This document shows, one piece after another, positions 7,409 to 58,664 of a DNA stretch of 64,000 bases. The notes below the pieces were generated by a model, which searched no databases, was not told where the DNA came from, and saw only the letters and a list, made by a program, of their open reading frames with translations. The translations under genes were made by a program, and so were the position numbers. Position 1 is the stretch's first letter; every line of letters begins with the position of its first letter. The stretch covers positions 124,001 to 188,000 of the forward strand of contig NZ_LGAP01000003.1 of NCBI RefSeq assembly GCF_001270265.1, read 5' to 3'. The stretch is from Ensifer adhaerens (GTDB lineage: Bacteria > Pseudomonadota > Alphaproteobacteria > Rhizobiales > Rhizobiaceae).

Positions 7409-7461
7409 CCGCTTTCGGTATCGGCATGCCGCGGTCCGCGGATACACGATGCTCGACGCCC

Positions 7462-7575: not shown

Positions 7576-7594
7576 GTTGTAGGGGAACGGGGCG

Positions 7595-8536: not shown

Positions 8537-8673
8537 AGCATCCCCAGCGCCGACACTGCCTGGCCGACGCTGCTCGACGCACCCCGGAAAAGGCTCACCG
8601 CCGTCCTTGGCGCAGACATCGGTCACATGATCGCGCAACCAGAAGGGCCCGGCGGATCGAGCCGGTGCCTTCT

Positions 8674-10095: not shown

Positions 10096-10203
10096 TCCGT
10101 CCCGTGGTACAAAGTTTTCCTGCGTTCTTGGTGCTTATTACAGGACCAGCCGGAGCGTATTTATAGCGGGCAGATGAACAGGCCACAAAGGAGAAATGTC
10201 ATC

Positions 10204-10629: not shown

Positions 10630-10633
10630 ACAG

Positions 10634-11089: not shown

Positions 11090-11279
11090 CCCCGAAGCAG
11101 CGCTTGCGGACCGCGACTGTTCGCGCGTCCGCGGCGCAATCGACATCTGACCTTGATAGAGCCCCAGCGGATCAAGCGCGACATCCCCTGGATCGGCCCG
11201 ACGCGGCTTGGCGTTAGAGCCTCTCCGGGCTCCCTGTGAACCCCGCCCCGCCAGCGCACCAAAGTCGAAAGGAAAACTT

Positions 11280-12251
11280 ATGCCAGATGTTTCAAAGAAT
11301 TTTTCCGGCAAGGTCTGGCGCGTCCATCAATTCGGGCCGCCAGATGTAATGCAATTGGAAATTTCAGACACACCCGAACCGAGCAGGGACGAAGTCATCG
11401 TCAAGGTGCATGCAGCCGGTGTTGGCCCCTGGGATGGGTGGATTCGCGCAGGCAACAGCGCCCTGCCCCAACCTCTCCCGCTCATTCTAGGCTCGGACAT
11501 CTCAGGCGAGGTGGTTGCTGTTGGCGAAGCTGTTACACGCTTCAAGGTCGGAGATGATGTATACGGCGTCACCAACAAGCGCTTTTGTGGTGGTTACGCC
11601 CAATACGCAGTCGCCAGTGCTTCCATGCTCGATCATAAGCCAGCCTCTATTGGCCACGTCGCTGCAGCATCGCTGCCGGTGATCGCGGTGACAGCTTGGC
11701 AAGCACTCTTCGATCAGGCTGGTCTGGAAAAGGGACAAACTGTGCTGATCCACGGTTCAGCGGGAAACGTGGGTGCCTACGCCGTGCAATTCGCCAGAGA
11801 GGCAGGCCTTCGGACAGTATGCACCGCCTCTTCCGGCGACATCGACAGCGTTGTTGCTCTCGGTGGTGAAACGGTCATCGACTATACGAAGATTAGATTT
11901 GACGACGAAATCCGCGGGGTCGATGCCGTAATCGATCTGGTGGGCGGGGACACCCAAAGTCGATCCTTCCGGGTGCTGAAAAAGGGAGGGCGATTGATTT
12001 CGGCCGTTTCCGTTCCCGACCAGGCACTGGCAGAACAACACCGGGTCTTGGCCAAGTTTTTCCTCGTCGACGTATCGACCGAGAGCCTTGCCCGCATTTC
12101 ATCTCTCATCTCCAGAAACGCCCTCAAGATGAATATCGGGGCGACATTACGGTTTGAGCAAGCGAAGGAGGCGCACTTGATGCTCGAGGGTCAGTTGCCG
12201 CGACCGAAGGGGAAGATCGTCCTGGCAACGGGAGAAGTCGGCCAGCGCTAA
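11280..12251 (+). CDS. Zinc-independent medium-chain NADP-dependent quinone oxidoreductase
   Basis: This 323-residue MDR-superfamily protein resembles quinone oxidoreductases and enoyl reductases. It has an N-terminal GroES-like fold (VWRVHQFGPPDVMQLEISDT), GSDISGEVVAVGEAVTRFKV, and the nucleotide-binding motif LIHGSAGNVGAYAVQFA. The catalytic zinc Cys/His ligands of alcohol dehydrogenases are missing. It should reduce quinones or activated alkenes with NADPH. ATG 11280 follows GAAAGGAAAACTT; the longer frame from 11208 has no ribosome site. It stands alone on the plus strand. Confidence 0.9.
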   Translation: MPDVSKNFSGKVWRVHQFGPPDVMQLEISDTPEPSRDEVIVKVHAAGVGPWDGWIRAGNSALPQPLPLILGSDISGEVVAVGEAVTRFKVGDDVYGVTNKRFCGGYAQYAVASASMLDHKPASIGHVAAASLPVIAVTAWQALFDQAGLEKGQTVLIHGSAGNVGAYAVQFAREAGLRTVCTASSGDIDSVVALGGETVIDYTKIRFDDEIRGVDAVIDLVGGDTQSRSFRVLKKGGRLISAVSVPDQALAEQHRVLAKFFLVDVSTESLARISSLISRNALKMNIGATLRFEQAKEAHLMLEGQLPRPKGKIVLATGEVGQR

Positions 12252-12389
12252 TGCATGACGCCCGAAAGCGAGCAACGGTTTCGGCATAACACATAAGACC
12301 AAGTGCCTAAAGCGGGTCACATGCATCCGTTTGCATGCGACCTGCTTTCGCAGCTCCGGACTACTGGAAAGATGGAGCGATGGCTCTCT

Positions 12390-13334
12390 TTAGTGGACTC
12401 TTCTTCCATGAAACACGCGGATCGCCAGAACGACCCCGGCGATCAGGATCGCGACGCCGGCTCCTTCCAATACCGTGGGCATTCGGGCATGGACGATGAG
12501 CCCGCCGACGACGCCGAAGGCCGTCTCTGACACGATCAATTGAGCGGCCAGCGCGACAGGTAGGCTGCGCGCGGCCACATTCCAGGTCCAGACCCCACCA
12601 ACGGTAGCGACCAAGGCGAGCGACACACCCCACAGATACAGCGGCGCGGCAGTGTCCCATCCAAAGCCAAGCCTAGGAAGCTGGAAGAGCTCCATGGCGG
12701 CACCAATCGGGTAGAAGACCAGCATCAATATGCCGCCGCCGATCAGGATGAGTGCCGACCATACACCTGAAGGCATGCCGGGTCTGGCAGCCAGTGCCGA
12801 CTGGTTGGCAATGGCAAACCACACCCACAACACGACCGCTGCGATGGCAAGCGGAACTCCGATCCAGAGTGAACGTACCGAATCCAGCCCACCGGCGGTG
12901 AATGCTGCGCTGTTGACAAGAACAAGACCGATCAACACCAGCATGAGAGGCATCATCAAAAATCGCCACCGAAGGGAGCCTTGCCGCTGATTGCCAATGA
13001 GGGCGAGGACGATCGGGACAAGGCCGAGGAAAGCAGGTGCAATTACCGGCCCGGCATAGATGGCAGCACCCGTTACCGTGAGGAAATAGCCGACATAGCC
13101 GATGAAGGCGATCCAGGTCGCCATGAGCCAGTTGCCGGGCGTAAGATACTGAGCCACCCCTTTTGTAGCGAACAAGAGATACAAACCCACCAGCGCTGAA
13201 ACGACATGTCGGATCAGGGCAAAGTCAAAGGTGGAGTATTCGCCGATCACGAACGGCACGATGAAATTGAGAGAAAAGGCGAATGCCGCGAAAATCGCAG
13301 CGAAAACGCCGATGTGAAACTGCCTGTCCATCAA
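12390..13334 (-). CDS. DMT-superfamily EamA transporter
   Basis: The 314-residue protein is almost entirely hydrophobic, with about ten membrane helices arranged as two EamA repeats, starting HIGVFAAIFAAFAFSLNFIV and ending AGVAILIAGVVLAIRVFHGR. EamA proteins export amino acids, metabolites or drugs; the substrate cannot be read from sequence. It is convergent with the quinone oxidoreductase and lies 67 bp downstream of the epoxide hydrolase gene on the same strand, so co-transcription with that gene is possible. Confidence 0.87.
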   Translation of the reverse strand: MMDRQFHIGVFAAIFAAFAFSLNFIVPFVIGEYSTFDFALIRHVVSALVGLYLLFATKGVAQYLTPGNWLMATWIAFIGYVGYFLTVTGAAIYAGPVIAPAFLGLVPIVLALIGNQRQGSLRWRFLMMPLMLVLIGLVLVNSAAFTAGGLDSVRSLWIGVPLAIAAVVLWVWFAIANQSALAARPGMPSGVWSALILIGGGILMLVFYPIGAAMELFQLPRLGFGWDTAAPLYLWGVSLALVATVGGVWTWNVAARSLPVALAAQLIVSETAFGVVGGLIVHARMPTVLEGAGVAILIAGVVLAIRVFHGRRVH

Positions 13335-13401
13335 TGGCCCCGATCTGCCAAGCGAGGCGGCCCCGCCGTCCGCGTCGTTCGCTGCTACAGTGATTTACTC
13401 T

Positions 13402-14718
13402 TTAGGACCGCAGCGCTTTGAACGCGGCCCTCAGCTCTTCGCTGAAGAGCTCGGGCTCTTCCCAGGCAGCGAAGTGTCCACCTTTTGCGACACGGTTGTA
13501 ATAGATGAGCTGAGGATAGGCTTTTGACAGCCAGTTTTTGGGCGGTCTGTAGACCTCTCCCGGGAACACCGTGACTGCGACCGGAACCTTTATGGCGGTC
13601 AGCTTCGCTCCGGACGTGGTGTTCTCCCAATAAATCCTTCCGCTGGACGGGCCCGTATTCGTCAGCCAGTAGAGCGTGATGTTGTCGAGGATCTCGTCCC
13701 TGGTCAGAGCGAGTTCGGGATGGCCGCGCGTGAATACCCAATCGGCAATCTTGTCGTACAGCCACGCAGCCAAACCGACAGGCGAATCCGCAAGACCATA
13801 CCCTACCGTTTCTGGCCGGGTCCCCATAATGGCAGCGTATCCAAAGCCATTGTTCAGGAAGTCGCGGGCGTCGGAAAAGATAGCCTTCTCTTCCGGGGAC
13901 AGGCTGTCGGGCGCAGGTCCGCCGCTCTTTAGAGCTTGGGCCGCATCGGCGGGGAAAGTGGTCGCGCGTTCAACCCTGTTGACGTGGATCCCCAGCAGTC
14001 CTTCCGGCGCTTGACGGCCCAGTGCATCGCTGATGATTGCCCCCCAGTCGCCGCCTTGGGAGGCGTAGCTGGTGTAACCGACACGCTTCATCAAGACGTC
14101 CCACGCAGCGGCAATGCGCTGCGGGTTCCAGCCTGTGGTCGTGGGTTTCTCAGAGAAGCCGAATCCCGGGATCGAGGGAATGACCAAGTGGAAGGCGTCT
14201 TCGGCCTTGCCGCCATGAGCGGTCGGATCGGTCAGTGGACCAATGACCTTCAGCAGTTCGAACACCGAGCCCGGCCATCCGTGCGTCATAATCAATGGCA
14301 ACGCATTCTGATGGCGGGACCGCACATGGATGAAATGGATGTCCAGGCCATCGATCTTTGTCAGGAACTGCGGAACTGCATTCAGCCGTCTTCCCGCCGG
14401 GCGCCGGTCGTAGGACGACCGCCAGTAATCCACCAGTTCCTTGAGTTTATGTGACTGAACACCCTGGGAGCGGTCAGTCACAGTCTCACTGTCGGGCCAC
14501 CGGGTCGCGGCGATCCGCCGCCGCATATCGATGAGCGCGCCTTCAGGAATTTCAGCCCTGAACGGGCGTATGTCGCCGGCGCCTGCATTCGTCACAGGGG
14601 CGGTTTTCGTCGCGGCCGCAACGGGCACGATTGCGGACGAAAGCCCGATCGCCGCTCCGGCGAACAGCAATGCGCGTCGTGACAGATACGTCTTCTCAAT
14701 CGATGGCTGTGTCGTCAT
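13402..14718 (-). CDS. Exported epoxide hydrolase with N-terminal EHN domain
   Basis: The 438-residue protein starts with a twin-arginine-like export signal (LSRRALLFAGAAIGLSSAIV), then an epoxide-hydrolase N-terminal domain (about 48-155; IPEGALIDMRRRIAATRWPD) and an alpha/beta hydrolase core. The oxyanion motif is HGWPGS, the nucleophile is the Asp in GGDWGA (Asp224) and the general base His lies in GGHFAAWEEPE. Such proteins resemble juvenile-hormone and microsomal epoxide hydrolases. ATG 14718 was preferred because AAAGGA lies 8 nt upstream; ATG 14727 abuts that site. The same strand continues with two SDR genes upstream. Confidence 0.9.
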   Translation of the reverse strand: MTTQPSIEKTYLSRRALLFAGAAIGLSSAIVPVAAATKTAPVTNAGAGDIRPFRAEIPEGALIDMRRRIAATRWPDSETVTDRSQGVQSHKLKELVDYWRSSYDRRPAGRRLNAVPQFLTKIDGLDIHFIHVRSRHQNALPLIMTHGWPGSVFELLKVIGPLTDPTAHGGKAEDAFHLVIPSIPGFGFSEKPTTTGWNPQRIAAAWDVLMKRVGYTSYASQGGDWGAIISDALGRQAPEGLLGIHVNRVERATTFPADAAQALKSGGPAPDSLSPEEKAIFSDARDFLNNGFGYAAIMGTRPETVGYGLADSPVGLAAWLYDKIADWVFTRGHPELALTRDEILDNITLYWLTNTGPSSGRIYWENTTSGAKLTAIKVPVAVTVFPGEVYRPPKNWLSKAYPQLIYYNRVAKGGHFAAWEEPELFSEELRAAFKALRS

Positions 14719-14855
14719 GACAAGCATCCTTTTTGTAGAGCGTCAAAGCTCCGTCGATGGGTTCGACAAAAGCGACGCGTTTCCCTTTGATCTAAGTCGT
14801 TCGTTCGAAAGCCTTGCCGGCATTGACGTTATCGTCCGGGTGTCCTTGATGGCAA

Positions 14856-42001: not shown

Positions 42002-42658
42002 CTACATGCGCGGCATCAAGCCATTCAGGACCGTTTCGGATATCGTGCGGGCTGCCGAACTGTAGTCGCTCGCTTTGAGTTGCCCTACCTGCAAGGCATC
42101 GCAGGCCAGGGCCTCGAACTCGGCGTAGAACTGCGTCGCCGACCACAGCATTATGAACAGATGTCTCGGGTCCACCGGCGCAAGTTTTCCCGCCGCCACC
42201 CACGCGTTCAATACCTCAGCCTTCTCGGCGGTGACCTCCCGCATGTGCTGGCGGGCATCGGCAGGCAGATGTTCAGCACCTTGCAGGATCTCGTTTGCAA
42301 ACAGGCGAGTCTCGGCAATGTTTCGCCGCGCATGCTCGAGCTTCGCCTTGATGTAGGCCTCGATTGCCTCGGCCGGTTCTCGATCCGCCGAGATATGGCG
42401 GAACGCCTGGTCCCAGCTGTTGATCAGGTGAGCGATCGTTGCCTTGTAGATCTCTTCCTTGGAGGAGAAATAATAATAGACGTTTCCCTTTGGCAGGCCG
42501 GAAAGCTCGGCGATCTCGTTTATTCTGGTGCCATCCAGACCCTTGCGCGAGAATATCTCCGTCGCCGCTTTCAATATCTTCAAAACGTTGCGCGCCCGAA
42601 TACGCTCGTCCGCGTTGTCGGTCGCGAGCTGCTTTCGCGATTTCTCAGCACTGGCCAT
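42002..42658 (-). CDS. TetR-family regulator, RutR-like
   Basis: The 218-residue protein has a TetR HTH (about 22-75; ILKAATEIFSRKGLDGTRIN, EIAELSGLPKGNVYYYFSSK) and a C-terminal domain resembling RutR/YcdC (LFIMLWSATQFYAEFEALAC). RutR is a uracil/thymine-sensing repressor of pyrimidine catabolism. The divergent operon carries two RutR-like operators in its promoter, so it is almost certainly the local repressor. A nucleobase or nucleoside derivative is a reasonable inducer guess. Confidence 0.88.
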   Translation of the reverse strand: MASAEKSRKQLATDNADERIRARNVLKILKAATEIFSRKGLDGTRINEIAELSGLPKGNVYYYFSSKEEIYKATIAHLINSWDQAFRHISADREPAEAIEAYIKAKLEHARRNIAETRLFANEILQGAEHLPADARQHMREVTAEKAEVLNAWVAAGKLAPVDPRHLFIMLWSATQFYAEFEALACDALQVGQLKASDYSSAARTISETVLNGLMPRM

Positions 42659-42810: not shown

Positions 42811-42859
42811 TTGACAATTTGGTCAACTTTTTTCATGAATTACTTGACCGTTTGGTCAG
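42811..42859. promoter_or_regulatory. Two RutR-like operators with an embedded -35 element
   Basis: TTGACAATTTGGTCAA at 42811-42826 and TTGACCGTTTGGTCAG at 42844-42859 are near-palindromes close to the RutR consensus TTGACCAnnTGGTCAA. They are 33 bp apart, about three helical turns. The first begins with TTGACA, a perfect sigma-70 -35 hexamer reading toward the operon, although the matching -10 is weak. Binding would occlude the promoter, consistent with repression by the divergent TetR protein. Confidence 0.75.
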
Positions 42860-42912: not shown

Positions 42913-43758
42913 ATGCTGTTGAAAGACGCCATGAGGGAGTTCACGACAAACTGGTCGCTGGACCTCGACGCCAACTGGCGCGCCCTCATCGGCCAGGCAG
43001 AACCTGATATCGATGCGATCGCAGCGGAGCTCGAGCTCGATGTCTGGGAACCGATCTTTCCCGTGCGTCGCGGCAAGATCTTTCCTGGAATGCCGGCAGG
43101 CGCGCATTGCCTACGCGCCTTCGACGCCATTGCGCCTGAAGATGTCCGGTGTGTCGTTCTCGGCCAGGATCCCTATCCGGAACCGGGCTTTGCCACCGGC
43201 CGCGCCTTCGAAACCGGCAATGTCGCTGCCTGGCACGAGCTCGACAAGATGTTCTCAAAAAGCATTCGCGCCTACATGCAGCTGATCGTGGCGGCGCGCA
43301 CCGGCGATCAGAGCTACGCCCGCACTTTCGATGATTGGCCGAAGACGCTTGCCGCGATGGAAAGCGGTCTGGTGGACATGGAACCGCCGGCGGGTATCGC
43401 CGATCGCTGGGTGACCAACGGCGTCCTCCTGCTCAATGCCTCGCTCACGCTCACGCGCTTTAAGGTGTCGATCGACCCGCATCAATCGGCCGGTCACCTG
43501 CGGCTTTGGCGGCCCATCGTCAGGCAAGCGCTGCATGCGCTCGCCGAGCGCGGGACACCGCTGGTGTTTATCGGCTTTGGCGATGCCGCTGCGGAAGCCC
43601 TTCTTGAGGTCGGTATCGATGAGCACAGCGCAGGTCACCTGCGCTGCATCCTTCGCGATCATCCCGCCAGGGCCGAAGCGGTCCTCTCTCGGCCAAACCC
43701 GTTCATCCTTTGCAACGAATATCTGGAGGCGATGGGCGCAAAGCCCATTGCGTGGTAA
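42913..43758 (+). CDS. Uracil-DNA glycosylase-like protein (atypical Ung homologue)
   Basis: This 281-residue protein has the family-1 UDG layout with altered motifs. Motif A reads VVLGQDPYPEPGFATGRAFE: Asp86 (water-activating) and Tyr88 are kept, but GQDPYH has become GQDPYP. VLLLNASLTL keeps Asn175 of the uracil pocket. Where Ung has HPSPLS there is HPARAE (His250 kept), and the end CNEYLEAMGAKPIAW matches Ung. It is the first gene of the operon with a GMC enzyme and a BMP importer, an unusual setting for DNA repair. The start may also be TTG 42907, 8 nt after GGAGG. Confidence 0.82.
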   Translation: MLLKDAMREFTTNWSLDLDANWRALIGQAEPDIDAIAAELELDVWEPIFPVRRGKIFPGMPAGAHCLRAFDAIAPEDVRCVVLGQDPYPEPGFATGRAFETGNVAAWHELDKMFSKSIRAYMQLIVAARTGDQSYARTFDDWPKTLAAMESGLVDMEPPAGIADRWVTNGVLLLNASLTLTRFKVSIDPHQSAGHLRLWRPIVRQALHALAERGTPLVFIGFGDAAAEALLEVGIDEHSAGHLRCILRDHPARAEAVLSRPNPFILCNEYLEAMGAKPIAW

Positions 43759-43760: not shown

Positions 43761-45392
43761 ATGGCGGCTCACGATACTTACGACTTCATCATCATCGGCG
43801 CCGGTTCAGCCGGTTGCGTGCTGGCAAACCGGCTTTCGGCCGATCCATCGCACAAGGTTCTCTTGATCGAGGCCGGCGGCAGGGATGCCAACCCGCTCTT
43901 TCGCCTGCCGATGCTGATGGGAAAGCTCTTCCATTCCGGGATCTACAACTGGCACTACCACACGGAGCCCGAGCCGTTTCTCAATGGCAGGTCGCTCTAT
44001 TGGCCGCGCGGAAAGGTTCTCGGCGGCACCTCGACAATCAACGGCATGATCTATGTGCGCGGCAATCGCCACGACTATGACCGCTGGGCACAGATGGGAT
44101 CGTCCGGCTGGTCCTATGACGAGGTTCTGCCGGCGTTCCGACGTTCGGAGGCGCATGTTCAGCGCCGCGACGAATACCACAATGGCGAGGGCGAGCTGAC
44201 CGTCTGCCGCGCTCGCGGCTGGAACACGCTGCTTGACGTCTTCAACGAGGCCGGCGGACAGGCAGGGCATCCGCTCAACGACGACTTCAACGGCGCCGAC
44301 CAGGAAGGCTTTGGCCGCTACGATTTCACGATCAGCAAAGGCAAGCGCTGCTCGACCGCGTATGCCTTCTTGCGTCCGGTAAAGAACCGCCGCAACCTGA
44401 CGATCGTGACCCGGGCTCAGACGCAACGGATCATCGTCGAGAACGGTCGTGCCGTCGGCGTCGAGTTCCGCCAGAAGAACGGAATTCGGCGGGTGCATGC
44501 GGATCGCGAGGTGATCCTTTCTGCCGGCGTCGTCAACTCGCCACAGATCCTCATGCTGTCGGGCATCGGCCCTGCCGACGAGCTCGCCAAGTTCAACATC
44601 CGCAGCGTTCAGGACCTGCCGGGCGTCGGCAAGAACCTTCAGGACCATGTCGACTGCGTCATGGCCTATGAATGCCCGCAGCCGGTGACACTCTACTCGG
44701 ATCTGAGAGCCGACAAGCTCACATGGTCGGTCATCCAGGGCATGCTGTTCGGCAAGGGCATCGCGACGACATTTCCTTACGAGGCAGGCGCCTTCGTCAA
44801 ATCACGATCGGACCTGACCGCCCCGGATATCCAGCTGCATTTCATGCCGGCGCTCGAAAAGACGGCCAATCTGCACTTTCCAAATCCCTTCAAAAAGGTG
44901 CCCGTCGAGGCCAATCACGGGTTCTCGATCCGCGTCGGTCCGGTCAATCCGGAGAGCCGCGGCGAGATCACGCTGCGCTCCGACAATCCGATGGAGCCTC
45001 CGAAGATCAACGCCAACTATCTGCAGACCGATTTCGACGTGCGCACCATGATAGATGCCATCCGCATGACCCGCGAGATCATCAACCAGAAGGCCTTCGA
45101 CAAATACCGCGGCCGGGAGCTTGCGCCGGGACCGACGGTCGACAGTGACAGCGACATGGTCAAATGGTTGCGGGCAAACGCCATGACGACATTCCATCCG
45201 GTCGGCACCTGCAAGATGGGCAACGACCCGATGGCTGTGGTCGACAACCGTCTCAAGGTTCGGGGGATCGACGGACTTCGCGTCGCCGACGCCTCGATCA
45301 TGCCCATCATCTCCAGCGGCAACACCAATGCCCCCGCCATCATGATCGGCGAACGGGCCAGTGACTTCATTCTAACGGAGACATCGCGATGA
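43761..45392 (+). CDS. GMC-family FAD oxidoreductase (choline dehydrogenase-like)
   Basis: The 543-residue flavoprotein has the dinucleotide motif DFIIIGAGSAGCVLANRLS, the GMC signatures WPRGKVLGGTSTINGMIYVR and VILSAGVVNSPQILMLSGIG, and the C-terminal active site FHPVGTCKMG with the catalytic His and a later Asn (NTNAPAIMIGERA). It oxidises a primary alcohol, possibly of a nucleoside or other BMP-importer cargo. It starts 3 bp after the UDG-like gene and overlaps the NIPSNAP gene by 4 bp, so the three are co-translated. A paralogue is at 55820. Confidence 0.93.
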   Translation: MAAHDTYDFIIIGAGSAGCVLANRLSADPSHKVLLIEAGGRDANPLFRLPMLMGKLFHSGIYNWHYHTEPEPFLNGRSLYWPRGKVLGGTSTINGMIYVRGNRHDYDRWAQMGSSGWSYDEVLPAFRRSEAHVQRRDEYHNGEGELTVCRARGWNTLLDVFNEAGGQAGHPLNDDFNGADQEGFGRYDFTISKGKRCSTAYAFLRPVKNRRNLTIVTRAQTQRIIVENGRAVGVEFRQKNGIRRVHADREVILSAGVVNSPQILMLSGIGPADELAKFNIRSVQDLPGVGKNLQDHVDCVMAYECPQPVTLYSDLRADKLTWSVIQGMLFGKGIATTFPYEAGAFVKSRSDLTAPDIQLHFMPALEKTANLHFPNPFKKVPVEANHGFSIRVGPVNPESRGEITLRSDNPMEPPKINANYLQTDFDVRTMIDAIRMTREIINQKAFDKYRGRELAPGPTVDSDSDMVKWLRANAMTTFHPVGTCKMGNDPMAVVDNRLKVRGIDGLRVADASIMPIISSGNTNAPAIMIGERASDFILTETSR

Positions 45393-45709
45393 TCGTCGAA
45401 CACCGCACCTATACCTTCCGCCCCGGCACGGTCGACGGCTGGATGAAGAAGTACGAACAACAGGGACTGCCGATCCAGAAGCGGCACCTCAACCGTTTTC
45501 TCGGACTTTATGTCAGCGAAATCGGACATCTGCACACCACGGTGCTGATGTGGGGATATGACAGCCTGGCTGACCGCGAAGCGCGCCGGACTGCCATGTA
45601 TGCCGATCCCGAGTGGCAGACGTTCATCTCCGGCGTCTGGGCGCTCGACGCCATCCAGAGCCAGGACGTGATGATCATGAATCCGGCGCCGTTTTCTCCC
45701 GGCGCCTGA
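45389..45709 (+). CDS. NIPSNAP-family protein
   Basis: The 106-residue protein matches NIPSNAP/ferredoxin-like small proteins: MIVEHRTYTFRPGTVDGWMK, LGLYVSEIGHLHTTVLMWGY and REARRTAMYADPEWQTFI. These fold as dimeric alpha/beta barrels and sometimes serve catabolic oxidations. Its start overlaps the GMC stop (ATGA). A partnership with the GMC enzyme is inferred from coupling alone. No metal or cofactor motif is visible. Confidence 0.83.
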   Translation: MIVEHRTYTFRPGTVDGWMKKYEQQGLPIQKRHLNRFLGLYVSEIGHLHTTVLMWGYDSLADREARRTAMYADPEWQTFISGVWALDAIQSQDVMIMNPAPFSPGA

Positions 45710-45815: not shown

Positions 45816-46886
45816 ATGACGAAAAAGATCACTGATGGGATGAGCCTGATTAATCGTGCGATCGATCGCCGCTTTTTCCTCAAGGCAACCGCCGGGTTGG
45901 GCATGGCCAGCATGGCGAGCGGCTTGCTTGCCGCGGTCGCCCATGCCTCGGGAGGGCTCGTGGCCCTCGTGCATACGCAGGCTGCCGGAGACGCCGGCCC
46001 GGTCGATTCCATGATCGCCAGGTTGAAGCAGCTCTCTGATGAAAAAGGGTTCGAATATCGCGCCGTCTATGCGCAAGATCCCGCAACCTACGAAACGATA
46101 TTTCGCACGCTCGGCGACGCCGGCGCAGCCGTGATCGTCTCGACGTTCAACGAAGTCGCCGAGCCGTTCAAGGCGCTGGCGCCGTCCTATCCCAACACCA
46201 AATGGGTGCAGCTGTTCGCCGATCCCTTCGAGCCGGCCATCCCGAACGTTGTCACGGTTTCCTACGACTACTATCTCGGCTGCTATCTCTCGGGCATCTT
46301 TGCCGCCCGGATGAGCAAATCCGGTAAGCTCGGCTTCATCGGTGGTGTTTCGATCCCGCCGATCAACGCGGATTTCAATGCGTTCAAGGCCGGCGTCCTT
46401 TCTGTCCGACCGGACGCGACCGTCACATCGGCATTCGCGGGCTCCTTCCAGGACCCTGCAAAGGGCCAGGAAATCGCCACACAGATGTTCAGCAGCGGCA
46501 TCGACTTCATCCAGACCGATGCCGCGGCCACCGACTTCGGCATCATCGCGGCCGCCAATGAAGTGCCTGGCCGGCTGGTCAGCGTGCTCGATCCGGCGCA
46601 GTTTCCCAAGGGTCCGCAATCCGTCATTTCGATCGTCGGCCTGGATTTCGGAACGTCGCTCTACAACGAAGTGAGCAAGGCACTGGGGTCTGACTGGGCG
46701 GGTGGCACGCACGAGCATACCGGGCTCGGCACTGGCGTGATCGACTTCATCCCCTCTCCCCTCTTCAAGGAGCAAGGGCCGGCAGAAATCGTCTCTGCCG
46801 CGAAGGCGACAGAGGCGGAAATCGACGCGGCGCGAGCTGCGATTCTCGACGGATCGCTGAAGGTCGAATTCAACACCAAGCTCTAA
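45816..46886 (+). CDS. BMP-family (Med/PnrA-type) ABC substrate-binding protein
   Basis: This 356-residue protein has a twin-arginine-like signal (about 15-44; IDRRFFLKATAGLGMASMAS) and a BMP fold: VALVHTQAAGDAGPVDSMIA, VIVSTFNEVAEPFKALAPSY and FIGGVSIPPINADFNAFKAG. Known BMP proteins bind purine or pyrimidine nucleosides, or autoinducer-like molecules. It starts the transport part of the operon, 106 bp after the NIPSNAP gene, behind AGAAGGAA. The ligand may be a nucleoside derivative. Confidence 0.9.
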   Translation: MTKKITDGMSLINRAIDRRFFLKATAGLGMASMASGLLAAVAHASGGLVALVHTQAAGDAGPVDSMIARLKQLSDEKGFEYRAVYAQDPATYETIFRTLGDAGAAVIVSTFNEVAEPFKALAPSYPNTKWVQLFADPFEPAIPNVVTVSYDYYLGCYLSGIFAARMSKSGKLGFIGGVSIPPINADFNAFKAGVLSVRPDATVTSAFAGSFQDPAKGQEIATQMFSSGIDFIQTDAAATDFGIIAAANEVPGRLVSVLDPAQFPKGPQSVISIVGLDFGTSLYNEVSKALGSDWAGGTHEHTGLGTGVIDFIPSPLFKEQGPAEIVSAAKATEAEIDAARAAILDGSLKVEFNTKL

Positions 46887-46915: not shown

Positions 46916-48478
46916 ATGATGGAAGACAGATCCCCCATATTTGAGTGCCGGGATGTCACCGTGCGCTACGGTGACATTACGGCACTTGCTGATGTCGGCG
47001 TGACGTTCGAGCGCGGCATGATCCACGCCGTCGTCGGTCAGAACGGCGCGGGCAAGACAACCTTTGCCCGCGTTCTGGCCGGCCTCGTCCGGCCGGCGGC
47101 CGGCAGCCTCAAGTTCAGCGGCCGGCCGCATGCCGGCGGTAGTGTCAACGATGCCCGCAAGGCCGGCGTCGAACTCGTGCATCAGAGCTTCGCACTGCCA
47201 CCAACTTTTACCGTGGCGGAAGCAATGCAGTTCGGCGCCGAAGGGGGCAGCCTGTTTACCCGGTCTGCCCTTGAACGCCGCTGGCAACCGCATCTCGACA
47301 GCCTCGACGTGAAGGTGAAGGCGCGCCAGCGCATTCGCGACCTGCCCGTCGAGATCCAGCAGGGCGTGGAGATCGCCCGCGCGCTCGTCTCGGAGGCAAA
47401 GCTTCTCATTCTCGACGAGCCGACTGCTGTGCTCTCCCCGGAAGGCACCGAAAAACTCTTCGAGCGAATAAGGCGGCTCAAGGCGCGCGGCGTCACCGTC
47501 ATCCTGATCCTGCACAAGATTAGGGAGGTATTGGCGATTGCCGACACCGTCACGGTGCTGCGCAGCGGCCGCCTCGTCGACGGCCCGCTTGATTGCACTG
47601 AAATCGATGCGGACAGGCTTGCCGAGCTCATCATTGGTCCGGCGGCCGCACGCGGCCTCAATGCCGACGACAAGGCGGCCCTTACCGGCTCTGCGACCGT
47701 CGCCCATGCGCACAACGAAACACCTTCCGCTGGGAAGAACACAGTCCTGGACATGCGCGCCGTCTCGACACGGCCCGATACGGAAGGACCGGCGCTCGAC
47801 AACGTCGACCTGACGATCTCGGCAGGTGAGATCATTGGTGTCGCGGGCGTCGAAGGCAACGGCCAAAGGACGTTGGTGCGGGCAATCTCCGCGCTCGTCG
47901 ATGTTGTCGACGGCAAGCTCGCCATCGGTGGCGACAACGTCACCGGCAAGCAGCTGGCAGCAAGACGGGCCGCCGGTCTGCGCATCATTCCCTTTGAACG
48001 AAACGTCGAGGGCCTCAGCCTTTCAAGCTCGCTCTGGGAGAACTGGTCAGCGCGCAGCCTGCTGCAAATGCCGCTTCTCGCCGCCATCAATCCGATAACG
48101 ATACAAAAGCGTTGTGCGGCGGCGTTGAACCGGTGGGACGTGCGCTATGCCAACGTTACCCAGCGTGCCAGCTCGCTTTCGGGCGGCAATGCGCAAAAGG
48201 TCATTCTGTCGCGCGAGATGGACGATGACGCCCGGCTGATTCTTGCCGCACAGCCGACCCGGGGCCTCGATATCGGCGCAACCTCCTTCGTCTGGGATGC
48301 CATGCGCGACGCGAAGGCGCGCGGCTGCGGTCTCCTGTTCATCTCGTCCGACCTCGATGAAATCTTCGACATATCCGACCGTGTGGTCGTTATGCTCTCC
48401 GGTCGGATCGTCGCGGAATTTCGCCCGCCCTATGATATTTCCGCTGTCGGCGCCGCCATGACGGGAGTCCTGAAATGA
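46916..48478 (+). CDS. BMP-type ABC transporter ATP-binding protein
   Basis: The 520-residue ATPase has two halves. The first has GQNGAGKTT, a degenerate signature (LPVEIQQGVEIARAL) and LLILDEPTAVL; the second has a degenerate P-loop (GVEGNGQRTL), an intact signature LSGGNAQKV and the altered Walker B ILAAQPTRGLDIGA. This matches NupO/YufO-like nucleoside importers. Its stop overlaps the first permease start by 4 bp. It would drive import of the BMP ligand. Confidence 0.92.
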   Translation: MMEDRSPIFECRDVTVRYGDITALADVGVTFERGMIHAVVGQNGAGKTTFARVLAGLVRPAAGSLKFSGRPHAGGSVNDARKAGVELVHQSFALPPTFTVAEAMQFGAEGGSLFTRSALERRWQPHLDSLDVKVKARQRIRDLPVEIQQGVEIARALVSEAKLLILDEPTAVLSPEGTEKLFERIRRLKARGVTVILILHKIREVLAIADTVTVLRSGRLVDGPLDCTEIDADRLAELIIGPAAARGLNADDKAALTGSATVAHAHNETPSAGKNTVLDMRAVSTRPDTEGPALDNVDLTISAGEIIGVAGVEGNGQRTLVRAISALVDVVDGKLAIGGDNVTGKQLAARRAAGLRIIPFERNVEGLSLSSSLWENWSARSLLQMPLLAAINPITIQKRCAAALNRWDVRYANVTQRASSLSGGNAQKVILSREMDDDARLILAAQPTRGLDIGATSFVWDAMRDAKARGCGLLFISSDLDEIFDISDRVVVMLSGRIVAEFRPPYDISAVGAAMTGVLK

Positions 48479-49521
48479 ACGAACGTTTCGTCTCGGTGCT
48501 ACGCGCCGTGATCTTCGTGCTGCTTGGCCTTGCGCTTTGCGGCATCATGTTCCAGCTCGCGGGCTACTCCGCTCCGCTGATGTTTCAGGCCATCGCTGAC
48601 GGCGCGTTCCTCAGAGCGGGCGCGCTGCAGCAGGCCCTGCGGTGGAGCCTTCCGCTGTTCATAACTGCCACGGGCGTCGCGCTTTCGTTCAGAGCCGGCT
48701 ACTTCAACATCGGCGCGCAAGGCCAGTTCTACGTCGGCGCCGTGTCGGCAGCCTTCATGGCCGAGTGGTTGAATGGCGCCCCCGCCGCGATCGTCATCCC
48801 AGCCTGCATTGCCAGCGGCATGCTCGGTGGTGCTGCCTGGGCGCTTTGGCCGGGACTGTTGAGGCTGAAGTCAGGGGCCGATGAAGTCATCACAACGCTG
48901 ATGGGCAACTTCCTTGCCGGCCTCGTCCTGCTCTATGTAACCTCCGGCCCGCTGAAGGATCCTTCCGGTTCCGGCCAGCAGGCATCGAGCCGCCCGCTCG
49001 ACGCCGCCTATCGCATCAGCGATTCCATGGGGCTGTCGCCGACGATCGTGGCCATCGTCGCTGTTGTCGGCGTCGCGATCTGGCTCCTCATCAACCGCAC
49101 GACCTTCGGCGTTCTTTCGGGTCTCGCCGGCCGTAACCCGACGATGGTGGAATGGCAGGGCGCCCGCACCTGGCGGATTGGCTTGGCCAGCTTCCTCATC
49201 AGCGGCGCCTTGGCGGGGCTTGCCGGAACCGTTGAGTTGATGGGTCCGAACGGGCGGTTGACTGGCGGGTTCCTGCCCGGGCACGGCTTCACCGCGATCC
49301 TCATCGCCCTCGTTGCCAATTTTTCGGTGGTTGGCACCGCATTCGTCGCCCTGTTCTTCGGCGGCCTGGCGTCGGCCGCACTTTACCTGCCCATCATGGC
49401 GGGTCTGCCATCGGCTGCCATCGATGTCATCAATGCCGCCATCGCACTCTTCATCACGGCCAAGTCCAGTCTGATCGACCGGATCGCAAAACTTAAGGGA
49501 CGGACATGGAAGACATCGTGA
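48475..49521 (+). CDS. BMP-type ABC transporter permease 1
   Basis: The 348-residue permease has about nine membrane helices and the family motif FRAGYFNIGAQGQFYVGAVS and SGADEVITTLMGNFLAGLVL, as in YufP/NupP. It forms the heterodimeric channel with the next gene, which begins 16 bp before this one ends. Both permeases and the ATPase are contiguous, giving a complete importer. Confidence 0.92.
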   Translation: MNERFVSVLRAVIFVLLGLALCGIMFQLAGYSAPLMFQAIADGAFLRAGALQQALRWSLPLFITATGVALSFRAGYFNIGAQGQFYVGAVSAAFMAEWLNGAPAAIVIPACIASGMLGGAAWALWPGLLRLKSGADEVITTLMGNFLAGLVLLYVTSGPLKDPSGSGQQASSRPLDAAYRISDSMGLSPTIVAIVAVVGVAIWLLINRTTFGVLSGLAGRNPTMVEWQGARTWRIGLASFLISGALAGLAGTVELMGPNGRLTGGFLPGHGFTAILIALVANFSVVGTAFVALFFGGLASAALYLPIMAGLPSAAIDVINAAIALFITAKSSLIDRIAKLKGRTWKTS

Positions 49522-50399
49522 TCGCCATTCTGCGGTCGGGAACGCCGCTCGTCTACGTCACCCTTGCAGGCGTCATCGCCCAGCGCGCCGGCATCTGGCA
49601 TCTCGGTCTTGAAGGGCTGATGATCACAGGCGCTTGCGCGACCGTGCTTGGCATCGTCCTGACCGGTTCTATCTGGGCAGCGCTGCTTTGGGCTATCGCC
49701 GTCTGCGTTGCGGGCTCGGTGCTGTTCTGGTTCGTCGTCGAGAAGCTGCGCGCCAACCAGATCATCGCCGGCCTCGGTCTCACGGGCCTGGGGCTTGGCG
49801 GTACAACACTCGCCGTCCAGTCGATCTTCGGAACGCAGGCCGCCGTCAGCGCGCCATTCGGCCTGCCTCGATTGGGACCCGCCTTCGGCGCCTATGGCTC
49901 ACTGTCCGTCCTCGTGGTCTTGATGCCCGTCCTGGTGCTGGCGGTCTGGGTCATGCTTCGACGCACCCGCTTCGGTCTTCGGTTGGCAGCCTCTGGCGAA
50001 CACCCCTTTGCCGCGCGCAGCGTCGGCGTGAACCCATCGGCCATGCGCCTTGCCGCACTTGTCATGGGCGGCGCCCTTTGCGCTCTGGCGGGTGCCGAGC
50101 TTGCCACCGGCAGCCTGCAGATCTTCGCGCAAAACATGACCGCCGGCCGTGGCTTCATGGGGTTCGCAGCCGTCATCTTCGGCGCCGGGCACCCGATCGG
50201 CGCGACGCTTGCTGCGCTGTTCTTTGCGATCGTCGGCGCGATCGGTATCAAGGCCCAGCTGATCTTCGGCGACCGCATCCCCCACGACCTTCTCTTAGGA
50301 CTGCCCTATATCGCGACCGTGCTCGGTATCTGGGTGAGCACCAAGCTACGAGGCGGGACCAAAGCCGCAAACGGCTTCACCGAGTTGCGCAACGAGTGA
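49506..50399 (+). CDS. BMP-type ABC transporter permease 2
   Basis: The 297-residue permease has about eight helices with the motif QRAGIWHLGLEGLMITGACA and a late RGFMGFAAVIFGAGHPIGAT, as in YufQ/NupQ. It overlaps permease 1 by 16 bp, so translation is coupled. The amidohydrolase gene follows after 43 bp on the same strand. Confidence 0.92.
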   Translation: MEDIVIAILRSGTPLVYVTLAGVIAQRAGIWHLGLEGLMITGACATVLGIVLTGSIWAALLWAIAVCVAGSVLFWFVVEKLRANQIIAGLGLTGLGLGGTTLAVQSIFGTQAAVSAPFGLPRLGPAFGAYGSLSVLVVLMPVLVLAVWVMLRRTRFGLRLAASGEHPFAARSVGVNPSAMRLAALVMGGALCALAGAELATGSLQIFAQNMTAGRGFMGFAAVIFGAGHPIGATLAALFFAIVGAIGIKAQLIFGDRIPHDLLLGLPYIATVLGIWVSTKLRGGTKAANGFTELRNE

Positions 50400-50442: not shown

Positions 50443-51954
50443 ATGAACCAGATCGTGATACGCAAGGCGACCCTACTGACGATGGAGGGTACGAACGGGT
50501 GCAAACCCTTCGAAGCCGATCTCCTGATCGAAGGAGGCCGGATCGCCGCCATCGGCGAAAACGTCGTCGCCAGATCCGACGCCAAGGTGATCGACGGTCG
50601 CAATCGCCTGGTCATGCCCGGCCTGATCAACGCGCACACGCATTCAAGCGAGACTTTCTTTCGCGGCCGCTATGAAGGCATGCCGCTCGAGGTCTGGCTC
50701 CTCTATGCCTATCCCCTGCTCATGGGCCCGGTGATTGACGAACGACTTCTCTATCTCCGCAGCCTGCTGCTGGCGATGGATTCGCTGCGCAACGGCGTGA
50801 CGACCATCTGCGACGACTTCTTCGATCCGCCAACTCATGATCTTTCACGTCTCGGGGCCGCATTTCGCGCTTACGAACAGGCCGGCATCCGCGCCAACGT
50901 GTCGAGCGCCGTCATGAATGTGCATACGCTGGATGCCTTGCCTTATGCCCGCGAGGTTTTACCGAAAGCGCTGCAGGACAAGCTCGATTTTGGCCCGCTC
51001 ATGCCGGCAGGCGATTACATCGATTATTGCCGATCCGCATTCGCCTCGCTGCACGGAAAGCCCGAACGGTTGCGTTTCATGATCGCGCCCTCCGCGCCAC
51101 AGCGATGCACGCCGGACATGCTTGCCGCCTGCCACGATCTCGCTATCGAAATGGGCGTTCCGCTCCACACCCATGTGCTGGAGACCAAGACGCAGGCCGT
51201 AACCGGCCCGGAATTCTACGGAAAGAGCCTGATTGCCTACATGCACGAGCTGGGCGCTCTGTCGCGCAACACCACCATTGCGCACTCCGTGTGGGTGAGC
51301 GACGCCGACATCGCGTTGATGGGTGCTGCAGGTTGCTCCATTGCCCACAATGCCGTGTCGAACCAGAAACTCGGCGCCGGCATCGCGCCGATCCGCAAAC
51401 TGCTCGATGCCGGCGTGGTTGTCGGACTTGGCACGGATGGCGTTTCTTCAAACGATACTGCCCGCATCTTCGATGTCATGCGGACGGCTGCCCTCATTCA
51501 CAGCACATCGGGGCCCGATTACGAGCGCTGGATCAAGGCGGAGGAGATCCTCGCCATGGCGACGATCGGCGGTGCGCGCAGCGCCATGCTCGAACAGCGC
51601 ACCGGGTCATTGGCTCCGGGCAAGGCGGCCGATCTGTTGATCCTCAACCTCAACACGTTCAACTTCTTTCCGCTCAACGACATACCGAAGCAGCTGGTAT
51701 TTTCCGAAAACGGATCATCCATCGAGACCGTCATGGTCGATGGTGAGATCGTCGTTCAAGGCGGCCGCCTCCAGACCGTCAACGAAGACGATGTGCTCGC
51801 CGAGATCCGCGAGCGCGTTCCCGCGCATCTCGCAGCGCATGCGGAACTGGAGAAACTCAACTCGATTTTCCACGTTTCTGTGGCTGAGATCCATCGCCGC
51901 GCGACCGCGCAGCCGATCGGTTTCGACCGTTACGCCGGAGACGCAATGCGTTGA
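50443..51954 (+). CDS. Amidohydrolase-superfamily deaminase/chlorohydrolase (TRZ/ATZ type)
   Basis: This 503-residue enzyme has the metal site of the TrzN/AtzB/guanine- and 8-oxoguanine-deaminase group: NAHTHSSET (His65, His67), HTHVLETK (His244, Glu247), IAHSVW (His281) and LGTDGVSSND (Asp332). Such enzymes deaminate purines, pterins or triazines or hydrolyse related bonds. As the last gene of the operon it should process the imported compound. The mononuclear zinc ligands all appear intact. The substrate cannot be fixed from sequence. Confidence 0.9.
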   Translation: MNQIVIRKATLLTMEGTNGCKPFEADLLIEGGRIAAIGENVVARSDAKVIDGRNRLVMPGLINAHTHSSETFFRGRYEGMPLEVWLLYAYPLLMGPVIDERLLYLRSLLLAMDSLRNGVTTICDDFFDPPTHDLSRLGAAFRAYEQAGIRANVSSAVMNVHTLDALPYAREVLPKALQDKLDFGPLMPAGDYIDYCRSAFASLHGKPERLRFMIAPSAPQRCTPDMLAACHDLAIEMGVPLHTHVLETKTQAVTGPEFYGKSLIAYMHELGALSRNTTIAHSVWVSDADIALMGAAGCSIAHNAVSNQKLGAGIAPIRKLLDAGVVVGLGTDGVSSNDTARIFDVMRTAALIHSTSGPDYERWIKAEEILAMATIGGARSAMLEQRTGSLAPGKAADLLILNLNTFNFFPLNDIPKQLVFSENGSSIETVMVDGEIVVQGGRLQTVNEDDVLAEIRERVPAHLAAHAELEKLNSIFHVSVAEIHRRATAQPIGFDRYAGDAMR

Positions 51955-55819: not shown

Positions 55820-57436
55820 TTAAATCGAGCTCCCTTTGATCACCATGGAAGCGGCTTTTTCGGCGACCATCATCGTCGGGGCATTGATGTTGCCGGCCGT
55901 GATGTTGGGGAAGATCGAAGCGTCGATGACGCGCAACCCTTGTACGCCGTGGACCTTCAGCGATGAATCGACGACGGCGGTTGAAGCACCCGGCCCCATC
56001 GCCGCAGTACCGCACAGGTGATAGATCGAACCGCTATGTTCCCGAAAGTAGTTCAGCAGCTCGGCGTCGGTGGAGGCTTCTGCGGAAGGAGGCATTTCGC
56101 TTGCAGTAATCGAGCGCAGTGCCGGCGCACCCATGATTTTGCGTGCAAGCCGACTTGCCTGAAGGACTTCGGCCTCGTCGTGAGCCGTCGTCAGGTAGTT
56201 GGGGTTGATGCGCGGCGCATCGGTAAAATCCGGTGAAGCGATCGTGACGCTGCCGCGGCTTGTTGGTCTGCATGCATTGAATGCCAACAGGAAGCCGGAA
56301 TAGGGTTCGGGCTTCAGTCCTGCACGTGGGTCGGACGGAATGCGATAGGAAAGCGGGTTGAAGTAGAGTTGGATGTTGGGCCTTTCCTCCCCCGGTTGAC
56401 CGCGCAGGAAGCCGCCGGCCTGGTTGACGCTGAGAGCCAAGGGGCCGCGCCTTGTCAGCGCATAGCGCAGCGCCTGCCGAGCCTGGCCGAACAGGCTCCC
56501 CAGCTCGTCGTTCAGTGTCGGGACCCTCGAGCGGTAGTAGAAGCTCGCGCAAAGGTGATCCTGGAGGTTTCTCCCGACCGCCGGCGAATGTCGGACAACG
56601 GGTATGCCGAACGCCTGCAGCTCTCGGCCATCGCCAATGCCGGAGAGCTGCAACAGCTTCGGCGTATCGACCGCGCCGGCACATAGGATCACCTCGCTGC
56701 GGGCGGAATGGGTTACCATCCCTTCAGGTGAGGCTACCTCCACGCCGACGGCCTTTCCTTCGTCGAAGACGACCCTGCGGGCGCGGGTTTTGCGCTGGAT
56801 GGAAAGATTGGGACGGTTGAGAGCCGGACGCAGATAGGCAAATGAAGAGGAAGAGCGCACGCCATTTCGCGTGTTGATATCGTAAATCCCTGCGCCCTCG
56901 ATCGATGCGCCATTGAAGTCGGAATTGAGCGGCAGTTGCAGTTCGGCACAGGCGGATAGGAACCGCGCGGTAATCGGATGGGTTTGATCGCGCATCGGCG
57001 TGACGTGGACAGGCCCATCTCCCCCATGAAATTCGGACTGGCCATCGGCATGGGTTTCAAGTTTCTTGAAATAGGGCAGCACATCCTCATAGGCCCATCC
57101 GGGATTGCCGGCCTTGGCCCAGTCGTCGAAATCCGCCGCGGCACCACGCACGAAGATCATGGCATTTATCGAGCCCGAACCTCCCTGCACCTTGCCGCGC
57201 GGCGCATAGATGCGGCGATTGCTCAGGGCGGCTTCCGGCTCGGTCCAGTACATCCAGTTGACGTTCGGATCGTAGTAGGACCGGGCGTAGCCCAACGGGA
57301 TGCGAAACCATGGCGAGCTGTCGTTGCCGCCCGCCTCGAGCAGAAGCACGCTGTGCTTGCCTGCCTCGCTCAGGCGCGCCGCAACGATACAGCCGGCGGA
57401 CCCGGCCCCGACGATGATGTAATCGTAGGTCGCCAT
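55820..57436 (-). CDS. GMC-family FAD oxidoreductase (choline dehydrogenase-like)
   Basis: The 538-residue flavoprotein starts YDYIIVGAGSAGCIVAARLS and has APRGKVQGGSGSINAMIFVR, VILCAGAVDTPKLLQLSGIG and the C-terminal IYHLCGTAAMGPGASTAVVD with NTAGNINAPT-like Asn. The catalytic His lies in SIYHLCGTAAMG. It oxidises an alcohol to an aldehyde. It lies 7 bp after the enolase-superfamily gene; with the ALDH two genes upstream it forms an alcohol-to-acid module. The start at 57436 matches the family; the longer frame upstream is noise. Confidence 0.92.
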   Translation of the reverse strand: MATYDYIIVGAGSAGCIVAARLSEAGKHSVLLLEAGGNDSSPWFRIPLGYARSYYDPNVNWMYWTEPEAALSNRRIYAPRGKVQGGSGSINAMIFVRGAAADFDDWAKAGNPGWAYEDVLPYFKKLETHADGQSEFHGGDGPVHVTPMRDQTHPITARFLSACAELQLPLNSDFNGASIEGAGIYDINTRNGVRSSSSFAYLRPALNRPNLSIQRKTRARRVVFDEGKAVGVEVASPEGMVTHSARSEVILCAGAVDTPKLLQLSGIGDGRELQAFGIPVVRHSPAVGRNLQDHLCASFYYRSRVPTLNDELGSLFGQARQALRYALTRRGPLALSVNQAGGFLRGQPGEERPNIQLYFNPLSYRIPSDPRAGLKPEPYSGFLLAFNACRPTSRGSVTIASPDFTDAPRINPNYLTTAHDEAEVLQASRLARKIMGAPALRSITASEMPPSAEASTDAELLNYFREHSGSIYHLCGTAAMGPGASTAVVDSSLKVHGVQGLRVIDASIFPNITAGNINAPTMMVAEKAASMVIKGSSI

Positions 57437-57443
57437 GTGATCC

Positions 57444-58664
57444 TCAACCGCGCGCCGGGGCAAATGCCTTGATGTCGGCGGGCTTGTCGTCCATCTGCAG
57501 GTGCAGACGCTTTCCTTCGTAGGGAGAGTGCTTTTCAACCACCTGGAGATCGAGCTCCACGCCGAGCCCCGGCTCGCGCGACGGAATGAGATAGCCATCG
57601 TCGAACTGCAACGGCGTCTTGAGGATCTCGGCGTAGAATCCGGAGAAGTCGACGATCGCCTCATGGATGAGGAAATTGGGGGTGGCCGCCGCCAATTGGA
57701 TGCTCGCCGCCGCGCCGACTGGCCCGTTGTAGACGTGCGGCGCGACCTGGGCATAGTGCGCCTCGGCCATGGCAGCGATCTTCTTTGCCTCCAGCAAACC
57801 GCCGCACCGCGCGACGTTCATCTGCAGGATCGAGGCTGCACCCGTTTCGAGCACCCGTTGGAACTCGTATTTGGTGGTCAGTCGCTCGCCGGTGGCTATC
57901 GGGATCGAGGTCGCACTGGCGACTGTCGCCATCGCTGCCTCCTGGCCGGGCGGCACCGGCTCCTCGAACCAGAGCGGATCGTACTTCTCAAGCCGCCGCG
58001 CAAGCCGAATGGCCGAGGACGGCACCATCTGGCCATGGGTACCGAAAAGCAGATCGGCACGCCCGCCAACCGCGGCGCGGATCTTGGCGCAAAACTCTTC
58101 GCACCGCTCCATGACGCCAATCGAAAGCTGGTGACCGGAATAGACGGTATAGGGTCCGGCAGGATCGAACTTGACGGCCGTGAAGCCCTTCCTGTCGACC
58201 ATTTCCGCAGCAAAGTCGGCGGCAAGCTCGGGATCGTTATAGTCGTATTCGCCGGCTGCATTCTTGGGGTAGAGATAGGTATAGGCGCGCAGCTTTTCGT
58301 GTACGAGGCCACCCAACAGCTTGTGCACCGGCCGGCCGGCCGCCTTGCCGATAATGTCCCAGCAGGCGATTTCGAGGCCGGAGACAACGCCCATGATCGT
58401 CGGATCCGGGCGCTGCGTGAAGCCGCTCGAATAGGCCGAGCGCCAGAAGCGCTCGATATCGTGCGGATCGTGGCCGAGCAGGTGGCGCTCGAACATATCC
58501 TCGATCAGCGGCACCAACGCCTTTGGATGGAAGGCGGTCGCATAGATTTCCCCAACCCCTTCGATGCCGTCCTTCGTGGTGAGCCTGACAAAGATCCAGT
58601 ACATCCCGCCGATATGGGGCGGCGGGACGGCAACGACATGAATGGCGAGCGAAGCGATCTGCAT
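57444..58664 (-). CDS. Enolase-superfamily dehydratase (mandelate racemase/muconate lactonizing type)
   Basis: This 406-residue protein has the capping domain (IASLAIHVVAVPPPHIGGMY) and the barrel with AVKFDPAGPYTVY, LLFGTHGQMVPSSAIRLARR, WFEEPVPPGQEAAMATVASA, ATGERLTTKYEF and APHVYNGPVGAAASIQLAAA, giving the Asp/Glu/Glu metal ligands and catalytic histidines of sugar-acid dehydratases. Likely substrates are aldonates such as galactonate or gluconate isomers. It is co-transcribed with ALDH (25 bp) and GMC (7 bp). Confidence 0.88.
   Translation of the reverse strand: MQIASLAIHVVAVPPPHIGGMYWIFVRLTTKDGIEGVGEIYATAFHPKALVPLIEDMFERHLLGHDPHDIERFWRSAYSSGFTQRPDPTIMGVVSGLEIACWDIIGKAAGRPVHKLLGGLVHEKLRAYTYLYPKNAAGEYDYNDPELAADFAAEMVDRKGFTAVKFDPAGPYTVYSGHQLSIGVMERCEEFCAKIRAAVGGRADLLFGTHGQMVPSSAIRLARRLEKYDPLWFEEPVPPGQEAAMATVASATSIPIATGERLTTKYEFQRVLETGAASILQMNVARCGGLLEAKKIAAMAEAHYAQVAPHVYNGPVGAAASIQLAAATPNFLIHEAIVDFSGFYAEILKTPLQFDDGYLIPSREPGLGVELDLQVVEKHSPYEGKRLHLQMDDKPADIKAFAPARG

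Follow-up and report, generated by a model that had tools for sequence, protein, structure and literature searches.

The uracil-DNA glycosylase (UDG) superfamily is known for DNA-repair enzymes, and none of its members is known to have a part in free-nucleoside catabolism; a literature search with incomplete coverage of subscription papers likewise brought up no paper that places one there. A 64,000-nucleotide stretch of Ensifer adhaerens contig NZ_LGAP01000003.1, hereafter the window, raises the question of what a homologue of the family-1 enzyme (Ung) does as the first gene of an operon. The original prediction, made from the letters of the window, proposed that this protein cleaves a bond in a small molecule or is a co-opted fold; it argued from the operon context and stressed altered catalytic motifs.

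A divergent Ung homologue with an intact pocket

Profile comparisons indicate that the Ung-like protein is a divergent yet genuine homologue of Ung. It reaches 78.2 bits (E 7.7e-22) against TIGR00628, short of the equivalog cut-off of 185.75, and 21.7 bits against the Pfam UDG model, for which the cut-off is 24.3. The structure predicted from 40 sequences (mean pLDDT, 82.5; pTM, 0.86), which supersedes an earlier nine-sequence model (pLDDT, 63.2), matches the family-1 Ung fold: its best PDB match by Foldseek is Mycobacterium tuberculosis Ung (E 5.1e-11; target TM, 0.71), and all of the 50 PDB matches listed are UDG/UNG entries. The low dN/dS of the gene (0.06 to 0.20 in seven pairs) points to purifying selection, and therefore to neither a decaying gene nor a chance open reading frame.

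The residues named in the original prediction (the catalytic Asp, the pocket Tyr, the Asn and the His) are present, as are the two motifs that it described, GQDPYP and HPARAE. Asp86, Tyr88, Phe99, Asn175 and His250 are each invariant in the 35 family members counted, a set that leaves out three sequences with broken or split frames (L035, L077 and L079) and two from outside the operon family (L076 and L078). By analogy with Ung, we take Asp86 to be the catalytic residue, Tyr88 to belong to the pocket, Phe99 to provide stacking, and Asn175 and His250 to be active-site residues. Compared with 33 canonical and phage UDGs (viral L168 and L184 were left out), the family keeps G84, Q85, D86, P87, Y88, F99, S117, N175, H195 and H250 in all 35 members. 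It also has invariants of its own, among them T95, R97, E100, W107, R129, R182, D188, H190 and R248, that are seldom or never seen at the corresponding alignment positions of the comparison UDGs; R119 and Q191 are family-invariant too, yet 11 and 6 of the 33 comparison UDGs, respectively, share them.

Motif B is of the HPA type, its His, Pro and Ala being found in all 35 aligned members, and the motif-B leucine, which in Ung intercalates into DNA, is lost from the family. The original prediction stressed the altered motifs. As an argument for a role away from DNA, they do not hold: GQDPYP is found in M. tuberculosis Ung by sequence alignment with its PDB entries, and several phage UDGs have a motif B of the HPA type, with Ala after HP in 13 of the 33 comparison rows, so that the motif changes alone do not establish a non-DNA role. 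Among 33 viral loci checked for motifs, out of 80 kept from IMG/VR (L106 to L185; 31 entered alignment A3), GQDPYP phage UDGs split into groups with HPSPLS and with HPA-type motif B; since the viral set was retrieved by a pattern containing GQDPYP, the share of this motif among viral UDGs carries no meaning. A loss of all DNA-contacting serines is also ruled out, Ser117, which presumably occupies the position of the DNA-pinching or DNA-contacting serine of Ung, being invariant in the family.

The original prediction had called for a tree of Ung homologues, and in the likelihood tree (midpoint rooted, with bootstrap values not fully settled and Nitratifractor salsuginis UNG entered as a 157-aa PDB fragment) the Ung-like proteins form a clade of their own. 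The operon proteins, together with the Variovorax and Alloyangia outliers, lie on a long stem beyond a 98/98 branch that parts them from canonical Ung, the phage UDGs and the Nitratifractor branch. The computed pI is 5.28 for the window protein and 4.75 to 6.61 across 33 operon members, against 7.85 to 9.64 for six canonical Ung proteins of the group (one with an over-long start); the Variovorax relative is itself basic (pI 10.3). At 281 aa, the window protein is longer than five of these six canonical proteins (231 to 239 aa), the sixth being the one with the over-long start.

The closest known likeness is to M. tuberculosis Ung (PDB 4wpk and 2zhx), with which the protein shares the predicted fold, GQDPYP and the catalytic Asp, Tyr, Phe, Asn and His. 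It differs from family-1 Ung in having HPARAE rather than HPSPLS, in its acidity, in its extra family-conserved residues and in its metabolic operon. N. salsuginis UNG (PDB 5x3g and 5x3h) aligns in one stretch, residues 61 to 223, which includes GQDPYP and the SLR...AR helix, and falls on a separate tree branch (as a fragment only). UdgX has the motif A GEQPG and a KRRIH loop, according to PMC10359453, whereas motif A of the Ung-like protein is GQDPY. The BdiUng class of Bradyrhizobium diazoefficiens, another UDG from rhizobia, reportedly lacks a classical motif B; it was not recognised among the PDB sequence matches of the Ung-like protein.

Elsewhere in the genome, as the original prediction had asked, we looked for a canonical ung and found one (C22:48002-48625; TIGR00628, 265.4 bits, above the cut-off), along with two more UDG-superfamily genes on C1. 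The repair function is therefore already covered, the Ung-like gene being an extra paralogue. The genome also encodes a thymidine kinase, which removes any argument from the absence of this enzyme: with it, imported deoxynucleosides could reach DNA, where the Ung-like protein might act in repair.

Operon layout and conservation

The window carries, in order, a TetR-family gene on the minus strand and then the Ung-like, GMC, NIPSNAP, BMP, ABC ATPase, two permease and amidohydrolase genes (Table 1). Pfam and NCBIfam matches agree with the original prediction, which had placed the Ung-like gene at the head of an operon for a GMC oxidase, a NIPSNAP protein, a nucleoside-type importer and an amidohydrolase. 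The PF02608 BMP protein and its ABC partners correspond to a nucleoside-type importer, its specificity being predicted from the family, and nucleosides are frequent ligands of characterised BMP proteins. The BMP protein additionally resembles an atrazine-binding protein (62.9 bits). The amidohydrolase falls under the cut-off of every one of the 25 NCBIfam models listed (63 matched). Neither a RihA-like hydrolase nor a thymidine phosphorylase was found in the window's own operon. Further downstream, on the minus strand (window positions 55820-57754), lies a second GMC oxidoreductase with 52% identity to that of the operon.

Table 1. Positions of the operon, its protein motifs and its operator-like sites in the window
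Feature	Position	Strand	Basis or remark
RutR-like repressor of the TetR family, divergent from the operon	42002..42658	-	TIGR03613 RutR, 172.4 bits
Operator-like palindrome 1, TTGACAATTTGGTCAA	42811..42826	+	Pattern match; paired sites in relatives
Operator-like palindrome 2, TTGACCGTTTGGTCAG	42844..42859	+	33 bp from palindrome 1
Ung-like gene, operon head	42913..43758	+	281 aa; ATG 42913, TAA 43758
Motif A, GQDPYP, residues 84-89	43162..43179	+	Presumed catalytic Asp86 and pocket Tyr88, both invariant in 35/35
Motif B, HPARAE, residues 250-255	43660..43677	+	Replaces HPSPLS; His250 kept, no Leu at motif position
GMC oxidoreductase, choline-dehydrogenase subfamily	43761..45392	+	PF00732/PF05199; NF002550, 688.1 bits (cut-off of 605 passed)
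NIPSNAP-family protein	45389..45709	+	PF07978, 99.4 bits
BMP/PnrA-type substrate-binding protein	45816..46886	+	PF02608, 132.5 bits
ABC transporter ATPase	46919..48478	+	PF00005
ABC permease 1	48475..49521	+	PF02653
ABC permease 2	49506..50399	+	PF02653
Amidohydrolase (TRZ/ATZ or deaminase-like)	50443..51954	+	PF01979, 194.6 bits

The operon context asked for in relatives is conserved: the divergent TetR gene and the Ung-like, GMC, NIPSNAP and BMP genes follow the same order in 35/35 loci, all fetched via the Ung-like gene and 33 of them distinct, since two pairs represent the same contig (L036 and L065 duplicate L027 and L032 and were dropped). The ATPase and permease genes come next in 34 of the 35, the exception, L072, stopping at a contig edge. 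The GMC start codon lies 2 nt past the stop of the Ung-like gene in the window, and an ATG for GMC is found at most 16 nt from that stop in all 33 listed relative loci, individual frames being unchecked.

Outside the order, the family is seldom found. With the Ensifer genome itself included in each count, matches at E below 1e-100 occur in 14 of 101 close relatives (among them 11 of 15 genomes of the same genus), and the gene was found in 15 of 397 genomes of the order; class-wide it turned up in 2 of 385 genomes, and phylum-wide in 2 of 398. The operon's BMP protein occurs in 12 of 297 genomes, own included, 11 of which also carry the Ung-like gene. A NIPSNAP search at E 1e-20 matched 33 of 264 genomes; the 11 genomes in which the match reaches 55% identity or more are exactly those that carry both the BMP and Ung-like genes, and the next match, at 50%, is far weaker. 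The gene is also present on Sinorhizobium meliloti plasmids, Sinorhizobium accounting for 31 of the 50 matching plasmid records. Many of the copies on S. meliloti plasmids bear the annotation uracil-DNA glycosylase, which is likely mistaken.

Two loci depart from this layout. In G341 (L099), the twelfth genome with the BMP protein, the locus consists of a TetR gene, the transporter genes and genes for a VOC protein, an amidohydrolase and a thymidine phosphorylase (DeoA) and is devoid of the UDG, GMC and NIPSNAP genes, and the Ung-like gene was not found in that genome by a search run without a positive control. In G740 (L098), the UDG-GMC-NIPSNAP trio is retained, with an inverted TetR gene standing between it and the transporter. 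Together with the co-occurrence across genomes, this joint absence and joint retention indicate that the trio behaves as one module. A second copy of the operon, with several genes frame-broken by decay or sequencing error, was seen in Brucella pituitosa (L035:10001-20841).

A probable pyrimidine signature in the regulator and in relatives' operons

New to this analysis are the RutR-like TetR protein, two RutR-like palindromes, and the RihA-type hydrolase or thymidine phosphorylase encoded in relatives' operons. On these grounds, pyrimidine-nucleoside catabolism is the most likely function of the operon. The best PDB relatives of the divergent TetR protein are RutR entries (123 to 129 bits; next best, 58.7), although it misses the curated RutR cut-off (TIGR03613) of 368 bits. 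The operon shares regulator family and operator shape with the RutR regulon, but its targets are neither rut nor pyd genes.

Within the window, the pattern YTGACNNNNTGGTCAR occurs twice, where 0.03 occurrences would be expected. The two window sites come close to the RutR consensus palindrome, TTGACCANNTGGTCAA, agreeing with it at 13 and 12 of its 14 positions. Across 34 promoters, the window included, two of the three best matches to this consensus upstream of the gene lie 32 to 35 bp apart in 33, L070 being the sole exception; the paired sites match 8 to 13 of the 14 positions, and these counts for the relatives stand without a shuffled control. A wider regulon did not emerge from the operator pattern: the other six of eight sites in the genome (control: two) had no visible pyrimidine genes in 3-kb loci, as judged by eye from the starts of the open reading frames.

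Relatives' operons add, 3' of the permeases, a RihA-like nucleoside hydrolase or a thymidine phosphorylase, often with a VOC protein. Two representatives of the hydrolase score 305 and 344 bits against PF01156 and 288 and 329 against the RihA model (cut-off, 433); two of the phosphorylase score 519 and 504 bits against NF004490 (cut-off, 269) and 522 and 524 against TIGR02643 (cut-off, 570.7), the remaining copies of both being recognised by tblastn. Across 36 UDG-bearing operon rows, the hydrolase is present in 11 and the phosphorylase in 4, with both in 2 and at least one in 13. An amidohydrolase is present in 27, the start of one more being visible at the stretch edge of L070 (a 28th row), and 4 rows have none of the three enzymes, one of them cut by a contig end. 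As several stretches stop about 10 kb downstream, genes that seem to be lacking at the 3' end may still be present.

RihA/IUNH hydrolases and thymidine phosphorylase perform the kind of reaction that we propose for the Ung-like protein, cleavage of the N-glycosidic bond of a free nucleoside, on folds unrelated to that of Ung. The Ung-like protein as the operon's sole nucleoside-cleaving enzyme is ruled out by its coexistence with a RihA-like hydrolase and DeoA. Since its gene is retained beside theirs, it is no simple replacement for them, and there it would either take a different nucleoside or do something else.

Among the variants of the locus, one (L100, in G075; 4515-14749) has an inserted cytochrome P450 gene and, in addition, another BMP gene and a gene for a Glyoxalase_8 protein. 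In the UDG-less operon, a 2OG-Fe(II) oxygenase gene (L099:15734-17059) is convergent to the thymidine phosphorylase gene; its product might act on thymine.

A possible metabolic role and its alternatives

The small-molecule role put forward in the original prediction keeps part of its footing, in the conserved context, the separate ung, the intact pocket, the acidity and the nucleoside enzymes of relatives, and loses its argument from the motifs. Our preferred reading, a tentative one, is that the Ung-like protein may be a metabolic N-glycosidase that is coupled to the GMC oxidase and acts on a free nucleoside of the uracil type or on a derivative of one. The kept pocket, the lost motif-B leucine, the acidity, the strict linkage to the GMC gene and the nucleoside operon under a RutR-like regulator all point this way.

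The substrate, the reaction, the order of steps, the part of the GMC and NIPSNAP proteins and the ligand of the repressor, as we infer them, would be as follows. The RutR-like repressor, bound to the two palindromes, would be freed by a pyrimidine, and the BMP-type ABC importer would take up a pyrimidine nucleoside or derivative. The Ung-like pocket would bind a uracil-type base, against which Phe99 would stack while Asn175 and His250 contact it and Tyr88 restricts C5; water activated by Asp86 would then cleave the free nucleoside at its N-glycosidic bond, the sugar side being recognised by family-conserved residues instead of a DNA groove. The coupled GMC oxidase and NIPSNAP protein might process the sugar or a base alcohol, before or after cleavage, while the amidohydrolase, RihA-like hydrolase or thymidine phosphorylase could handle other members of the substrate pool. 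On such a scheme, a fold known from DNA repair may have moved into ordinary metabolism; in a conserved operon member with the full active-site set and no motif-B leucine, this move is directly testable.

Several observations weigh against an N-glycosidase. Tyr88 and Ser117 are kept, the Variovorax relative is basic, a thymidine kinase is present and the G341 operon does without a UDG; moreover, the gene is kept beside RihA or DeoA (13/36 rows), the window's own operon has neither of these enzymes, and the regulator misses the RutR cut-off. The Tyr88 equivalent of Ung excludes thymine, so that thymidine would fit poorly as the substrate. Nor is Ung known to cleave free deoxyuridine.

The same thymidine kinase, together with the catalytic residues intact in 35/35 members, would suit a DNA glycosylase, perhaps acting on single-stranded DNA, that is co-induced with nucleoside import and removes uracil or C5-modified uracils entering the DNA pool. 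Phage UDGs for which DNA is the probable substrate also have HPA-type motif B, and the alignment with N. salsuginis UNG over residues 61 to 223 fits as well. We nevertheless find this explanation unlikely: a canonical ung is already present, the protein is acidic and without the motif-B leucine, its gene is tightly linked to GMC oxidase and NIPSNAP genes rather than to repair genes, and its clade is separate from both phage and canonical Ung.

About as improbable is that the protein hydrolyses a C-N bond of some N-heterocycle other than a nucleoside, such as a triazine- or uracil-like compound, which would make the operon a pathway for a xenobiotic or plant metabolite. The TRZ/ATZ-type amidohydrolase and the resemblance of the BMP protein to an atrazine-binding protein favor it, but the RihA-like hydrolase or thymidine phosphorylase in relatives and the RutR-like regulator point to nucleosides, as does the frequency of nucleoside binding among characterised BMP proteins. 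Least probable, in our estimate, is a fold co-opted without catalysis, by which the protein would serve the GMC oxidase as a carrier, an assembly factor or a partner that binds the base. The close spacing to the GMC start and the shared fate of the trio in G341 and G740 would suit it, but a mere binder would not need the water-activating Asp, the Asn and the His that are invariant in 35/35 members.

Beyond the operon family, the Variovorax and Azospirillum relatives share 42% in the UDG-like gene and 42% in a nearby amidohydrolase gene, the Azospirillum UDG-like copy being split over two frames. The Alloyangia and Paracoccus relatives adjoin an exonuclease and an HNH protein, so the catabolic setting is not universal among distant members. 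On Paracoccus pMARC5 (L079:3753-10991), the UDG-like match extends beyond the annotated coding sequence, an HNH gene is adjacent, and a multiubiquitin/E2/ThiF-like cluster lies a few kilobases away. Finally, proteins of Embleya sp. (L103:4803-6425) and Nonomuraea (L104:4839-6446) combine a GQNPYP UDG-like domain with an ADP-ribosyltransferase domain at the C terminus, which scores 38.5 and 43.9 bits, respectively, against PF01129 (cut-off, 22.3).
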